Positions 3,628 to 47,903 of a stretch of DNA of 64,000 nucleotides are shown piece after piece. Source of the stretch: a virus; IMG/VR virus record IMGVR_UViG_3300026484_000295, positions 1 to 64,000 of that record; one strand, 5' to 3'. How positions within the stretch are numbered: position 1 is the stretch's first letter; each line of letters starts with the position of its first letter. The translations under genes were made by a program, and so were the position numbers. The notes beneath the pieces were generated by a model. It searched no databases, had not been told where the DNA came from, and saw only the letters and a list, made by a program, of their open reading frames with translations.

Positions 3628-3773
3628 TCTCAAAATATTATAATCCATTTGGTACCATCAGATCAATTTTGAGACCCATATCGCCACCCTCTAGAAAGGT
3701 TTGTGATATAGTAGGGTTATTGCTTGTTTGCTGACCATCAGCACAATCTATATTCCAAAGAATACACATTGTG
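3628..3773 (-). other. structured tRNA-spacer RNA; alternative 43-codon ORF (3638-3769)
   Basis: On the minus strand this spacer holds a CACAAT/ATTGTG hairpin (3742-3747 with 3768-3773), GCTGA/TCAGC (3730-3742), and a TCTCAAAAT/ATTTTGAGA helix (3628-3636 with 3666-3674) followed by a T-run, which is terminator-like. An ORF starting MCILWNIDCADGQQ also spans it but has no visible SD. A processed small RNA seems at least as likely as a peptide. Confidence 0.35.
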
Positions 3774-3796
3774 TTGGTGTTTTTATTTATACATAT

Positions 3797-3805
3797 ATTA
3801 TACAA
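3797..3805 (-). promoter_or_regulatory. TTGTATAAT promoter of the tRNA-Arg unit
   Basis: Minus-strand TTGTATAAT preceded by a T-rich tract, upstream of the structured spacer and tRNA-Arg. The same word recurs upstream of each other tRNA unit. Confidence 0.5.
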
Positions 3806-3891
3806 AAGTTTACTTTAAATTCATCTTAAATTTATTAAAATTTAGAAAAAATTGTTTTTTTAGAAAAATATAATACGTAAGAAGTGGGTAA

Positions 3892-4321: not shown

Positions 4322-4515
4322 AAATTTTTATTAATTTTATCTTAAATTTTGATTTTTTCAAAATTTATTGATTATCTTCTAATATATCACCTAAAATAGG
4401 ATTATTAAATAATTTATCAATTTTAATTCCATCATTCACTCTTATCACGTATTTTCTTTTATTAATTAGTGATTTTCATATGTTTTTAGAAATAAATAAT
4501 AAAAAGGAGGAAGAT

Positions 4516-5169
4516 TTGATATATTACATAGTTTATAAAATTACAAATTTAATTAATAATAAAATATATATTGGCGTACACAAAACTAATAATATTGATG
4601 ATGACTATATGGGGTCTGGAAAATTGATTAAAAGTGCAATAAAAAAATATGGAAAAGAAAACTTTAAAAAAGAAATTATCGAGGTATTTGACAATTCAGA
4701 AGATATGTTTAATAAAGAAAAAGAGTTAGTTAATGAATCATTTATTAATGATAAAAATACATATAATATTGTTGAAGGTGGATATGGTGGTTTTGACTAT
4801 GCAACGGAAATTTCCAAAAAATTTAAAAAAGGTATTTATCAAGATGATTTTCATAAAAAACTTGCAGATATTAGTCGTGGAAACTTTAAAAACAATAAAA
4901 AATTAGCAAAAAAAGCCTCTGAATTAAGTCATAGTCCTGAGGCTATTAAAAAAAGAAATGAAACTCGTAGGAAAAATAAGAAATCAAATGATTATAGAAT
5001 GTGGATAACAAATGATATTGAAAATAAATATATTTTAAAAATAGAACCTATTCCTACTGGCTGGAGAAAAGGAAAAATTCAACGAAAAGAAGCATGTCCT
5101 CATTGTGGAATAAAAATGGGTGTTTGTGGAGCTTTTTATAAACATATCGAAAATTGTGATGGTGATTAG
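4516..5169 (+). CDS. GIY-YIG homing endonuclease (TTG start)
   Basis: 217 aa. I start it at TTG 4516 because SD AAGGAGG (4504-4510) lies 5 nt upstream; an in-frame ATG at 4480 has no SD. The GIY-YIG nuclease core opens the protein (YYIVYKITN, then KIYIGVHKT). A lysine-rich DNA-binding linker, a MWITN...IPTGWRKG motif seen in Seg-type enzymes, and a C-terminal zinc finger (CPHC with H...C) follow. This is a selfish element in the tRNA cluster, transcribed against the tRNAs. Confidence 0.85.
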   Translation: MIYYIVYKITNLINNKIYIGVHKTNNIDDDYMGSGKLIKSAIKKYGKENFKKEIIEVFDNSEDMFNKEKELVNESFINDKNTYNIVEGGYGGFDYATEISKKFKKGIYQDDFHKKLADISRGNFKNNKKLAKKASELSHSPEAIKKRNETRRKNKKSNDYRMWITNDIENKYILKIEPIPTGWRKGKIQRKEACPHCGIKMGVCGAFYKHIENCDGD

Positions 5170-5201
5170 TTTAGAACGGATTTGAAGAATAATTCAAATA
5201 A

Positions 5202-5287: not shown

Positions 5288-5295
5288 ATTTTAAA

Positions 5296-5366
5296 AGAGA
5301 TAGAATCAATAGAGTGTGTTTCCTAAATTCCAAATAATTCGATGTAATCTCTATCTTTAATTCTCT
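5296..5366 (-). repeat. stem-loop element, copy 1 (no tRNA inside)
   Basis: Outer helix 5296-5300 with 5362-5366 and inner helix 5309-5314 with 5349-5354, separated by an internal loop. The right flank (5339-5370) is almost identical to 5757-5790 around the permuted tRNA. The enclosed sequence here is an unrelated stretch of about 34 nt. Confidence 0.6.
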
Positions 5367-5372
5367 AATAAA

Positions 5373-5642: not shown

Positions 5643-5646
5643 ACTT

Positions 5647-5786
5647 AGAGAGATCAAATCAATAAAGATATAATAAGATGCTCTACCGCTGAGCTACCTA
5701 CTATCCACTAAGAGTTAGTAGGGTTGGATTCGAACCAACGACCATCCGCTTAAAAGGCGATGTAATCTTTATCTTTAATTCTCTCT
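5647..5786 (-). repeat. stem-loop element, copy 2 (encloses the permuted tRNA)
   Basis: Outer helix 5647-5653 with 5780-5786 (7 bp) and inner helix 5662-5669 with 5765-5772 (8 bp). Compared with copy 1, paired positions change together (ATAGAG/CTCTAT against ATAAAG/CTTTAT), which supports a selected RNA stem. It would bring the outer ends of the permuted tRNA halves together. Confidence 0.65.
5677..5759 (-). tRNA. circularly permuted tRNA-Lys (UUU): 3' half precedes 5' half
   Basis: On the minus strand the 3' half comes first (5759-5716): CGC, loop CTTTTAA, GCGGA, T-arm GTTGGTTCGAATCCAAC, acceptor CCTACTA. Then a 12-nt spacer (5715-5704), then the 5' half (5703-5677): acceptor TAGTAGG, D-arm TAGCTCAGCGGTAGAGC, ATC. 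Rejoined, they give a 72-nt canonical tRNA with 7/7 acceptor pairs and a full anticodon stem (TC+CGC with GCGGA). CCA is not encoded, unlike the other tRNAs here. Maturation would need cutting of the acceptor loop and ligation within the anticodon stem. Confidence 0.75.
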
Positions 5787-5817
5787 AATATTGTTATATC
5801 GAATTGATATGTTGAAA

Positions 5818-7282: not shown

Positions 7283-7649
7283 TTAATCTTTCTTATTAGC
7301 AATATCATCTGTTGCATATAAAATAGGTTCTTTTATAGCAAGAATATATTGATGTATATTATTAAAATCTATCAATGATAAATCATCTATAAGAACCCTA
7401 TCAAATCTATGCCCTCTTAAAAAATTTAAATTTGTTGCTGCACCAATCAATAGTAGTCCACCCATATCACTTTCTATAAATTCTTTATATTCGCTACGTA
7501 TACGATATAATGTCTGTTCATTACGAATAATTACTGCGGTCTTTTTTCCCAAACTAACTAATATCTTAGCTAATTCTAATAATTCAGAGGTTTTCCCTGA
7601 CTGTCTTGCCTTATATCTTAAATTTAATATCATATTATTATTATACATA
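7283..7649 (-). CDS. P-loop NTPase-like protein
   Basis: About 120 aa from ATG 7649 (ATG 7634 is also possible); longer in-frame extensions overlap the 7677 gene and look spurious. It has a Walker A-like ARQSGKTSELL and a Walker B-like RVLIDDLSLID, with a predicted beta strand before each. The size suggests a minimal ATPase or DNA-handling accessory protein. No SD is obvious. The specific role is unknown. Confidence 0.55.
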
Positions 7650-7676
7650 AATAAAAGAAAAAAAGGAAAAATTATT

Positions 7677-8138
7677 ATGACTCTAAAAAAAATTATAGAA
7701 TCTGAAGAACAATTTAATAATATAGTAGAATATTTGATAGTAGGTGCTGCTATTGATGCTAATTTAATAGATTTAAATGAAAATATCACCGATAGTTGTA
7801 AAATGACTTTTGGAAATAACTTAGTAACAGATAATACGGATGAAAATACCCTAAAGAAAGCGATCGATAAATTATTAAGTGTTGATTTTAATGCTACCTC
7901 TAACAAATCTAGTTGTTTATCAGCTATTTTAACTAAATTAGGAAAAATAGATGATAAATGCGATTGTGATATGCCTGCGAAAAATGCGAAAGTGACTGCT
8001 TTAGATTCATTACAAAAATTATGGAATCAAATGATTATTAAATATGGGAAAGACTTAGCTAACCCTTCAAAAGCAGTAAAAACTTTTAATGCTATGAAAG
8101 GTATATTAGCTGATGCCTTTAAGAAATTAAAATCTTAA
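7677..8138 (+). CDS. hypothetical protein (153 aa)
   Basis: Not recognised. Mostly helical, with a CDCDMPAK patch in the middle. SD AAAGGAAAA and a late-like CATAAATA lie upstream. It overlaps the convergent 8135-8641 gene by 4 nt. Confidence 0.65.
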   Translation: MTLKKIIESEEQFNNIVEYLIVGAAIDANLIDLNENITDSCKMTFGNNLVTDNTDENTLKKAIDKLLSVDFNATSNKSSCLSAILTKLGKIDDKCDCDMPAKNAKVTALDSLQKLWNQMIIKYGKDLANPSKAVKTFNAMKGILADAFKKLKS

Positions 8139-8641
8139 AGGTATTTTATTTTTTTGAATTTAGTTACAGCTAATAATTGTTCTGGAAGTGGAAATTCATT
8201 TTCTCTAATAAAAGATGATGTTGATTTTTCTATTAAACTTTCAGCTCCAATTATATTTTCAAAGATATAATCATTACCTAATGAATTAGGAAGAATTCTA
8301 TTTAATTTTACTTCTGCTTCTTTGCCATTAGGGAAAATAATCAAATAAAAATTACCAACGATCAGATCAGATGGATCAACTGAATCACCAACTACTTTTT
8401 CAGTTGGATTATCATTTAATATTTGCGAAACAAGCCATTCCGATGGACTCATATTGTCTGGCTTTATAGATTCTTCGAATTTAAAGTCCTCTTGGAGACG
8501 ATTACTATCCATAATATGGTTAATGATAAACTCTTTCTCATCCTCGGTTAAATGATCAGGTAAACCCATTTCTTTCAACATTTTTTCATCATCTAACATT
8601 AAACGTATCCACGCTTCATTATTGTTTCCTATTCTACTCAT
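8135..8641 (-). CDS. hypothetical protein (168 aa)
   Basis: Not recognised. An acidic helical N-terminal half (LPDHLTEDEKEFIINH) precedes a beta-rich C-terminal half (GNFYLIIFPNGKEAEVKLNR). No membrane segment. It is co-directional with and touches the upstream membrane-protein gene at 8641. Confidence 0.65.
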   Translation of the reverse strand: MSRIGNNNEAWIRLMLDDEKMLKEMGLPDHLTEDEKEFIINHIMDSNRLQEDFKFEESIKPDNMSPSEWLVSQILNDNPTEKVVGDSVDPSDLIVGNFYLIIFPNGKEAEVKLNRILPNSLGNDYIFENIIGAESLIEKSTSSFIRENEFPLPEQLLAVTKFKKIKYL

Positions 8642-9285
8642 CAGTTATTCCTCATATTTAGTTGCTGTATGGTTATTTCAATTCTAGGTTTGTTATTACG
8701 AATATATTCAATACTTATATCTCTTTTTAATTTCCCATCTTCACCAATTATTTGGTCTAATGTGTATTGTCTATCTTTTTTATTTTTATAATCATCAGTA
8801 AAATAAAGCTTTCCATCTTCACCAAAATATTTTATTAAGAATGTATCCTTATCAGATAAATGGTTATCTACAATAGTAATTTTGCTAATTTTTTTTATTA
8901 TTTTTGCTTGTTTTGGTTTGTGTGTAATGTCAATACTATCATACACCATAATTATCCCAGCAAGCAACAAAAATATAGCATAATATATCATCCCTTTCTT
9001 AAAATCATGAATATTTCGCGGGTGTCTGTATTCTCCTTCATAATCTTTTTCAAAAGCTTCACCAGGACCGGCAGCAAGTATAATAGTTATAAAAAGGAAT
9101 ACAGTTACTGAAATTACAATCCATGGTAAACTTAAATTTACTATTGATGTATAGTGCAAAATAGCATTAACAAGTAAAAAAACTAAAACAGTAAAAAAAA
9201 TAAAATTACTATATGTTTCTTTTAAAAAAATATCATCAATTTTTATTTTTTTAAAATTAATTAATGGTCTGTTACTAACTTTCAT
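8641..9285 (-). CDS. membrane protein, three predicted TM segments
   Basis: 214 aa. Hydrophobic spans at about residues 28-45, 53-72 and 99-116, then a soluble C-terminal domain of about 95 aa rich in beta strands. No family recognised. It might remodel the host inner membrane or exclude other phages, but the sequence gives no direct clue. Confidence 0.65.
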   Translation of the reverse strand: MKVSNRPLINFKKIKIDDIFLKETYSNFIFFTVLVFLLVNAILHYTSIVNLSLPWIVISVTVFLFITIILAAGPGEAFEKDYEGEYRHPRNIHDFKKGMIYYAIFLLLAGIIMVYDSIDITHKPKQAKIIKKISKITIVDNHLSDKDTFLIKYFGEDGKLYFTDDYKNKKDRQYTLDQIIGEDGKLKRDISIEYIRNNKPRIEITIQQLNMRNN

Positions 9286-44025: not shown

Positions 44026-44829
44026 ATGTTTAATTTAGGACAAGCTCAATCAATTTTAGGAATTAACAATTCAAACGATCATATTTATAGATTGAATGAA
44101 CAGTTACAAACAGGTAAAAGAATCAACAAAGCAGCTGATGATGCTTCTGGGATGGCAATCGCAAATCAATTAAGATCACAAGCAAATGGTCTGGGACAAG
44201 CAATTAGAAATTCTAATGAAGCTATTTCATTAACAAATATTGCGGATGGTGCATTAGAAGAATATACAAAAATTATTATGGAAGTTAGAGATAAAGCTGC
44301 ACAAGCTATTTCAGATTCAAACTCTACTGAGTCTAGAACAGCACTTCAAAATGATATTAATGAATTAATTAAATCAGCTGAAGCTATAGCAAACGACACA
44401 TCATATAACGGTATTAAACTGTTAGACGGCACATTTACAAATAAAGTATTCCAAACTGGTGCATATAGTGGACAAACAACTTCAATCTCAATTTCAAGTA
44501 CTAAAACTGCTGATTTAGGTATCGATGGATTAACTGTTGATAGTGCTACAAACGCAGCAACTGCGTTAGATGATATTGATGCAGCATTGAAATCATTAGA
44601 TGGAATTAGAAGTGGTATTGGTTCTGTAACACAAGGTCTTGAATCAAAAGTTAGAAATATGGAAGCAACACAACAAAATGTTTTAGCAGCAGAATCTAAT
44701 ATTAGAGATGTTGATGAAGCAGCTGCAAAAGCAGAATTAGATAATTGGACAGTAAGAAATCAAGCATCAATGTTTGCATTTCAAATGGCTGCAAGACAGC
44801 AACAAAATATTTTAAGATTATTCCAATAA
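44026..44829 (+). CDS. flagellin
   Basis: 267 aa. Conserved D0/D1 N-terminal helices (LQTGKRINKAADDASGMAIA, then QLRSQANGLGQAIRN) and C-terminal helices (SNIRDVDEAAAKAELDNW and ending ARQQQNILRLFQ). The hypervariable D2/D3 region is almost absent (short beta part, about 140-185), giving a minimal filament subunit. No signal peptide, as expected for type III export. SD GGAGG. Sigma-28 promoter and GC-rich hairpin downstream. A flagellin on a phage is exceptional. It could enter the host filament, or be a virion fibre (less likely given the FlaG and FliS-like neighbours). Confidence 0.92.
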   Translation: MFNLGQAQSILGINNSNDHIYRLNEQLQTGKRINKAADDASGMAIANQLRSQANGLGQAIRNSNEAISLTNIADGALEEYTKIIMEVRDKAAQAISDSNSTESRTALQNDINELIKSAEAIANDTSYNGIKLLDGTFTNKVFQTGAYSGQTTSISISSTKTADLGIDGLTVDSATNAATALDDIDAALKSLDGIRSGIGSVTQGLESKVRNMEATQQNVLAAESNIRDVDEAAAKAELDNWTVRNQASMFAFQMAARQQQNILRLFQ

Positions 44830-46306: not shown

Positions 46307-46681
46307 TTATTTTAATTCACATCTAGAAATATGAAATGTGGAACTTTCTATATGTCCTTGCTTTCTATTATACACTTGCCATCCATTATCAGGATCGTTA
46401 AAAACTTCATATGTTTTACTCGGATAAATCCTTATCCCACCTTGAGGCGATAAACATATTAAAGATGGGTAATTATTTCTAACAAGATTAAGAGCTTTTT
46501 CTCTAAAATCAAATGATTTAAAAAAAAACATTTTAATAATTAAAAAAACAATCAATGTTGGAACAAGGACTATAACCCATGATCTACATAACAAACCAAA
46601 ATCTGTAGTACAAAATATATTAATTTTCTTAAATATTATATCAATAATATTAATGTTATTATTTTTATTTTTGATAGTCAT
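46307..46681 (-). CDS. single-pass membrane protein (124 aa)
   Basis: Hydrophobic segment at about 32-52 (LLCRSWVIVLVPTLIVFLII). The short C-terminal domain contains a phage-type CLSPQGGIRIYPSKTYEV. It overlaps the CCA-enzyme gene by 17 nt. Not recognised. Confidence 0.55.
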   Translation of the reverse strand: MTIKNKNNNINIIDIIFKKINIFCTTDFGLLCRSWVIVLVPTLIVFLIIKMFFFKSFDFREKALNLVRNNYPSLICLSPQGGIRIYPSKTYEVFNDPDNGWQVYNRKQGHIESSTFHISRCELK

Positions 46682-47903
46682 TTTTAATCTCCGCTATTAA
46701 TTGTTCTCTTGTATTGACCGATGGATTTTCAATTACAAGATTTAATAATTTAATTAATTCATCACCAATTTCTGTACCTTGTAATCCAAGATTAATTAAA
46801 TCATACCCATTCACTTTTAATTGACTAATTTTATACGGTTCTTCATCAACCGTACCTACCTTATTTTTAAGGGCTTTTAGAGTGATTAAACCTTCTTTAT
46901 GATTATTCTCCTTATTAAGAATTTTAAACGTATTTAAAAGTCTCTCACACAAATCAAACTTACCATTTGCTAATCTAAGAAGTGCTTTAACCGTTGCTTG
47001 ATCTGAAAAATCTTTTCCTTCAAAATCATCTTGAAAAGTGATGAATAAAGTGTATAACTCTTTATATTCAGAACTCAATTTAAGAATTTGAATATCCCCT
47101 TTCATTTTAAGTAATAATGGCAAGTAATCAAATGTCTTAAACATATCTTCAAGTACTCTTTGATGAACTTCATCATCCTTAATAAATCTATGAAAAATTC
47201 TCATATCATGCAGAGCTCCAATGACAAAGTTTAAAGAATATGAGTCCTTTTTAAGGATTTTAAACATAGAGTCTAACTCTTGATAAATCCTCTCAATCGA
47301 AACAACAGAGTCATCATAAGTATAAATGGCGGCTTCTAATTGGTCTCTTGTAGTAGTAAAACCGAGACTATCAAAGCGTGATAGAAATCTTATAAATCGG
47401 ATAGAACGAAGATTGTCCTCTTTAATCCGTTTAGTTGCATCTCCAACAAATCTAATAATTCTATTATCAGAGTCCTGAATACCACCGGTTGGATCAAAAA
47501 ATTCATTTGTAATTGGGTTATACCCACAGGCATTAATAGTGAAATCTCTCCTACTTGCATCAGCATCAAAATTATCAGCAAAAGCAATGGTGGCATTTCT
47601 ACCATCGCAAGAGACATCATATCGATACCGTGTTACTTCATATAATTCTTTGTCGAGTTTAATAGATACAGTTCCATGTGCTTCACCAGTTGGTATAACA
47701 TTTTTAAATAGTTTATTAGTTATTTCTATTGGACAATTTGTTGCAAAATCAATATCTTTTGGACTAATACCAAGATATAAATCTCGAACAGGCCCACCAA
47801 CTATAAGACATTCGTACCCTGCATTCATAAACGTTTTGGTAATAAAAATACTATGTGCTTTGAAAGGTTCTGGAAGTTGATCGAAATATCGTTTAAAATT
47901 CAT
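46665..47903 (-). CDS. cca: tRNA nucleotidyltransferase (CCA-adding enzyme)
   Basis: 412 aa. Class II nucleotidyltransferase head: GGPVRDLYLG (36-45), KDIDFATN with the catalytic Asp pair, EAHGTVSIK, then YDVSCDGR, SRRDFTINA and DNLRSIRFIRF. The C-terminal half is helical. It adds or repairs 3' CCA. Seven tRNAs here encode CCA, but the permuted tRNA-Lys (5677-5759) does not, so it would need this activity. Its SD touches a 9-bp hairpin (47912-47952). Confidence 0.92.
   Translation of the reverse strand: MNFKRYFDQLPEPFKAHSIFITKTFMNAGYECLIVGGPVRDLYLGISPKDIDFATNCPIEITNKLFKNVIPTGEAHGTVSIKLDKELYEVTRYRYDVSCDGRNATIAFADNFDADASRRDFTINACGYNPITNEFFDPTGGIQDSDNRIIRFVGDATKRIKEDNLRSIRFIRFLSRFDSLGFTTTRDQLEAAIYTYDDSVVSIERIYQELDSMFKILKKDSYSLNFVIGALHDMRIFHRFIKDDEVHQRVLEDMFKTFDYLPLLLKMKGDIQILKLSSEYKELYTLFITFQDDFEGKDFSDQATVKALLRLANGKFDLCERLLNTFKILNKENNHKEGLITLKALKNKVGTVDEEPYKISQLKVNGYDLINLGLQGTEIGDELIKLLNLVIENPSVNTREQLIAEIKNDYQK

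Follow-up and report, generated by a model that had tools for sequence, protein, structure and literature searches.

The window analysed here, the whole 64,000-nt stretch of DNA, belongs to an incomplete 172-kb virus contig of 27% GC that carries T4-type capsid, portal and prohead-protease genes. Within its phage tRNA cluster, flanked by tRNA-Glu and by an oppositely oriented ORF, lies an element that ARAGORN missed when run on the unjoined window, in which it called seven ordinary tRNAs. An initial annotation had proposed that a tRNA-Lys(UUU)-like sequence is encoded here with its 3′ half ahead of its 5′ half and a 12-nt gap between them, and our reading of the minus strand (5759–5677) confirmed this order. 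The parts of the module are as follows.

5716..5759, minus strand: tRNA 3′ half (positions 29–72), CGCCTTTTAAGCGGATGGTCGTTGGTTCGAATCCAACCCTACTA, from reading of the strand and from ARAGORN on the joined halves
5747..5759, minus strand: anticodon-like hairpin CGC-CUUUUAA-GCG, with the UUU loop of tRNA-Lys
5723..5739, minus strand: T arm with 5/5 pairs and the loop UUCGAAU, from ARAGORN and the covariance-model match
5704..5715, minus strand: 12-nt spacer that caps the acceptor-like stem, ACTCTTAGTGGA = ACUCUUAGUGGA
5677..5703, minus strand: tRNA 5′ half (positions 1–28), TAGTAGGTAGCTCAGCGGTAGAGCATC, with the D arm at 5680–5694

When the halves were joined, ARAGORN returned tRNA-Lys(ttt) with a complete cloverleaf (acceptor 7/7, D 4/4, anticodon 5/5 and T 5/5 pairs), in agreement with the canonical cloverleaf described initially. 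The break at 28/29, in the anticodon stem, and the absence of CCA were likewise borne out by the sequence: the stems are intact with neither overlap nor gap, the module begins with U1–A72, and CCA is not encoded in it; those neighbouring tRNA genes whose 3′ ends were read do encode CCA. The tetranucleotide CATC is present twice, once at each junction. We scanned ~1 Mb of DNA from the phage and its relatives for a structural pattern consisting of a 5-bp T arm, a 7-nt strand, a spacer, the complementary 7-nt strand and a D arm. The window element was the only full-score match (7/7, 5/5 and 4/4), and the permuted pattern is therefore not a product of chance. An exact-sequence search with the T arm plus the acceptor of the element gave zero matches.

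Other genes of note lie in the window. A GIY-YIG (SegE-like) ORF inside the tRNA cluster (4480–5169), which has a related ORF in the relative G008, is probably a free-standing homing endonuclease. The ORF at 46665–47903 encodes a tRNA nucleotidyltransferase of the CCA-adding/poly(A) polymerase type, despite the CCA already encoded in the neighbouring phage tRNAs. The phage also encodes, at 44026–44829, a 267-aa ORF in which both flagellin domains are complete, the N-terminal one (PF00669, E 6e-38) and the C-terminal one (PF00700, E 1e-15).

The initial annotation had left out the flanks, which contain a paired leader and trailer, the motif UUACAUCG and a paralogous stem near tRNA-Leu. The corresponding features are listed below.

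5645..5788, minus strand: whole predicted YrlA-type Y RNA of ~144 nt, fold z = −3.8, with ends set by the predicted stems
5780..5788, minus strand: 5′ strand of the outer stem, UUAGAGAGA, pairing with 5645–5653 at a probability of ~1 for most pairs
5645..5653, minus strand: 3′ strand of the outer stem, UCUCUCUAA, partner of 5780–5788
5765..5773, minus strand: 5′ strand of the inner stem, GAUAAAGAU, the predicted Ro60-type stem, pairing with 5661–5669 at a probability of 0.8–1
5661..5669, minus strand: 3′ strand of the inner stem, AUCUUUAUU, partner of 5765–5773
5758..5765, minus strand: leader motif UUACAUCG, conserved in the family as UUACUUCG and extending into the 3′ half
5290..5372, minus strand: second, shorter Y-RNA-like hairpin without the tRNA module (repeat D12), z only −1.2

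Folding predicted that leader and trailer form two 9-bp helices split by an AUUAAA/GAUUUGA internal loop (z = −3.8), and the large end-to-end stem required of a YrlA-type Y RNA is present in this form. The length of the RNA between its predicted ends, ~144 nt, falls within the ~90–150 nt of that type. The lower stem of the window copy is very AT-rich. Nearest-neighbour folding of the window RNA favoured a different pairing for the acceptor strands (cloverleaf acceptor probability 0.04; −33.8 versus −45.5 kcal/mol), which counts against reading it as a Y RNA. In alignment A6 the leader motif keeps its register across Ro60-adjacent RNAs, and YMCWUC was found upstream in 64/77 bacterial RNAs, its chance occurrence in the window being ~2%. 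The hairpin at 5290–5372, upstream of tRNA-Leu, repeats a 27-nt leader including UUACAUCG at 26/27 nt and follows the stem-loop-stem plan of the permuted RNA, with one compensatory change (A-U to G-C) in the inner stem. A promoter scan around the element found sites no more frequent than expected by chance.

The element belongs to a known structural family. Rfam YrlA (Y RNA-like, RF02553) matched 5659–5772 over its full length with 39.2 bits (E 5e-7), below the gathering cut-off of 69, which is a library threshold and not a biological feature; the Ro60-adjacent RNAs that we tested against the same model also remained under 69, the bacterial ones at 38–48 bits, level with the window element, and bacterial and phage ones together at 30–56. 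We then used a covariance model, R1, built from 26 Ro60-adjacent RNAs with the window left out. It matched 5660–5767 with 79.5 bits (E ~4e-18), inside the span of its members and of held-out Ro60-adjacent RNAs (~42–93 bits), as compared with at most ~51 bits for tandem-tRNA controls. The next-best matches of R1 were phage Lys(UUU) permuted RNAs in the loci L273 and L136. The L273 RNA (3716–3814) has a Ro60-like ORF just downstream, with one tRNA between them.

The association of this family with Ro60 genes was evident in both directions of search. A scan of viral contigs with the T-arm/D-arm pattern, followed by a permuted-cloverleaf filter, recovered ~60 permuted RNAs in 43 phage loci; ARAGORN was blind to almost all of them, and their Rfam match was YrlA. 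Among the 16 scanned phage loci with a Ro60/TROVE ORF, 12 have it 90–670 bp from the permuted RNA. Conversely, when loci were chosen by Ro60 alone, a permuted RNA was present, within the stretch retrieved, in 10/16 annotated phage loci (11 if one with only an Rfam YrlA match is counted) and in 54/80 bacterial loci, the latter giving ~70 RNAs. The permuted module, the 28/29 break and an upstream UUAC[A/U]UCG are standard in Ro60-adjacent RNAs of bacteria and phages. A complete anticodon arm, defined by the cross-break pairs 27:43 and 28:42, a 29–31:39–41 hairpin, U33 and a purine at 37, occurs together with the 28/29 break in 39/70 of the bacterial Ro60-locus RNAs, with many anticodons and with UUU in one (L354). 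The idea that this arm sets phage versions apart from bacterial YrlA was rejected on the strength of the same count.

Several further loci deserve mention in their own right. Two genes just upstream of Ro60 that depositors labelled tRNA-Arg (L276:2671–2742, NC_073474.1) and tRNA-Thr (L281:2792–2859, OQ622092.1) appear to be permuted Y RNAs rather than tRNAs. In Streptomyces phage Kela (L280:1972–4593), a permuted RNA is followed by an RNA ligase and then Ro60, a phage parallel of the bacterial rsr-yrlBA-rtcBA repair operon. Tandem arrays of permuted RNAs lie in L124 near 10776, L207 near 5074–5201 and L142 near 8147–8923, where lineage-specific stem motifs (CUGAUAAG/AACAGCAA; UUCAUCCUUCU) replace UUACUUC. 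The RNAs at L282@2671, L288@2750 and L289@2865, near phage Ro60, have a D arm and a long variable region resembling those of class II tRNAs (Leu/Ser). Phage contigs with Y-type RNAs also gave matches to a permuted tmRNA (RF04321, 64 bits) and to ROOL RNA (RF03087, 323 bits), at L206:6477–6635 and L193:3148–3722.

The tRNA-Lys-like sequence is truly permuted, and its permuted form is under selection. The two pairs that span the break, 27:43 and 28:42, are both formed in 42/51 strict phage examples, as compared with a mean of 8.6/51 and a maximum of 17 in 2000 trials with shuffled partners, and all four Watson-Crick types occur in the real examples. The module is thus a real structure rather than a pair of decayed halves. 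Short loops, often GNRA or UUCG, take the place of the spacer in relatives; with so stable a cap in many of them, the acceptor looks closed by design, which speaks against excision of the spacer. The tRNA body predicted the anticodon isotype poorly (1/17 top matches; Lys ranked 6/21 for the window element), and the idea that each RNA descends from the tRNA named by its own anticodon was unsupported among class I examples.

Ro60 is a ring-shaped protein with which YrlA-type Y RNAs normally partner. According to published work (PMC8394870), the basal stem of YrlA binds Rsr/Ro60, and its tRNA-like domain receives tRNA-type modifications and is able to bind PNPase. The YrlA crystal structure overlays that of tRNA in circularly permuted order (PMC11472068), and both papers describe YrlA as a permuted tRNA mimic. 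We conclude that the window element is very probably a phage-encoded Y RNA of the bacterial type, of the YrlA class. If transcribed, its ends would pair into the long interrupted stem, the predicted docking part for Ro60/Rsr, and its middle would fold into the tRNA-Lys-like module, the acceptor stem being closed by the 12-nt loop so that the halves need no cutting or joining. The module might be taken for a tRNA by modification enzymes, by PNPase, as in the Deinococcus model, or by anticodon nucleases; it could then tether or occupy tRNA-binding proteins, the stem at the same time docking on a phage or host protein of the Ro60 type. Neither the 172-kb record nor the 290 kb of the relative G001 yielded a Ro60/TROVE protein. 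Because both records are incomplete, the phage may rely on the Ro60 of its host or on a copy of its own located elsewhere. The G001 contig, with ~80–93% identical DNA, begins at window position 15.9 kb, past the RNA locus. The relatives G007 and G008 have zero tRNAs over the Rfam cut-off, their weak matches resembling coding sequence, and a search for related loci using the ORF at 7283–7906 gave no relative. A weakly Ro60-like 494-aa ORF in G008 proved to be a DUF2201 VWA protein.

A Y RNA by descent might serve this phage mainly as a decoy, its UUU loop occupying host nucleases that attack the anticodon of tRNA-Lys. It is well established that PrrC-type nucleases target tRNA-Lys in phage infection, and an anticodon arm with U33 and a purine at 37 is kept in 16/51 phage RNAs, with UUU in three. 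The tRNA-like domain of YrlA has already been suggested as a possible competitive inhibitor of an anticodon nuclease (PMC7790460). However, the same arm, with many anticodons, is common among bacterial Ro60-adjacent Y RNAs and hence is not specific to phages; we regard the decoy function as the main role of the RNA as rather unlikely. It seems a little more doubtful still that, in phages without a Ro60 of their own, the permuted RNA has been made active, either as a true permuted tRNA-Lys matured by RNA repair of host or phage or as a decoy for tRNA-Lys anticodon nucleases.

Alternatively, the element could be a genuine permuted tRNA-Lys gene, whose transcript would be cut at the leader/trailer stem and ligated at 28/29 into a circle, after which RNase P and 3′ processing would drop the spacer and CCA addition would yield a working tRNA-Lys(UUU). 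The rejoined halves do make a complete cloverleaf, and this would be the only tRNA-Lys of the 172-kb record, in which AAA, at 74 per 1000, is used more than any other codon listed. The phage also encodes the CCA-adding-type enzyme at 46665–47903, and the RNA ligase of phage Kela sits between such an RNA and Ro60. Against these points, the family accompanies Ro60 and its published explanation requires no joining, the acceptor stems of relatives carry GNRA/UUCG caps, the isotype of the anticodon does not follow from the tRNA body, and the module starts with U1–A72 and encodes no CCA. Furthermore, the junction has no bulge-helix-bulge: a 5-nt/7-nt internal loop and a 9-bp helix are predicted there, without the 4-bp central helix and the 3-nt bulges. 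Neither RtcB nor a T4-type ligase (PF09511, for which the positive control was silent) was detected in the incomplete genome. We consider a functional permuted tRNA gene highly improbable. Of the permuted tRNA-Lys proposed initially, the permutation stands, real and under selection as the cross-break pairs attest; a tRNA gene whose transcript is cut and rejoined is the poorer reading, given the YrlA-type features, the missing bulge-helix-bulge and the lack of a detected ligase in the incomplete genome.

That the element is a non-functional remnant of two tandem tRNA-Lys copies, the first without its 5′ half and the second without its 3′ half, is scarcely credible: a tandem duplication whose outer parts were then lost would leave the halves in this order, and CATC is repeated at both junctions, but all stems are intact without overlap or gap, both cross-break pairs persist in 42/51 divergent examples, leader motif and stems are conserved, and the permuted form recurs independently beside Ro60. 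A permuted group I or II intron was rejected, the trailer lying no more than 35 nt from tRNA-Glu.

The identification of the element as a Y RNA averts a false claim of the first permuted tRNA gene in a phage. The initial annotation knew of no established phage case; Y RNAs have in fact been proposed before in Listeria phage CKA15 (PMC12282133), and this 2025 paper cites reports of Y RNAs in mycobacteriophages. TROVE proteins have been reported from jumbo phages (PMC7824862). The scan used here offers a simple route to Y RNAs missed by ARAGORN or deposited as ordinary tRNAs. These findings raise the questions of why a tRNA-Lys(UUU) mimic whose anticodon loop is intact is retained by phages, even by those without a visible Ro60, and whether the permuted RNA acts in RNA quality control or as a shield from tRNA-cutting defences.

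Three known systems can be compared with the window element. In red and green algae and in archaea, permuted tRNA genes (PMC3978253) likewise have the 3′ half first and give a cloverleaf on joining; they differ in having bulge-helix-bulge sites, a splicing endonuclease and ligase, and a tRNA product, none of which was seen for the window. The YrlA-type bacterial Y RNAs (Rfam RF02553; PDB 6CU1) have the D, T and acceptor arms circularly permuted atop a stem formed by the ends (PMC8394870, PMC11472068), as does the window RNA, which shares with them the leader UUAC(U/A)UC, the break in the anticodon stem and the loop-capped acceptor. Unlike them, it has a lower stem whose AT-richness departs from the Rfam consensus and a long acceptor loop (12 nt); its place is a phage tRNA cluster, and the available sequence yielded no Ro60 gene. 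The Ro60/Y RNA loci of Gordonia phage VanLee, Streptomyces phages BRock and Kela, Xanthomonas phage 10KY502B and Rhizobium phage TM2_3B, in contrast to the window contig, have a recognisable Ro60 gene within ~3 kb; the permuted RNA itself is of the same kind there and often occurs as a run of several.
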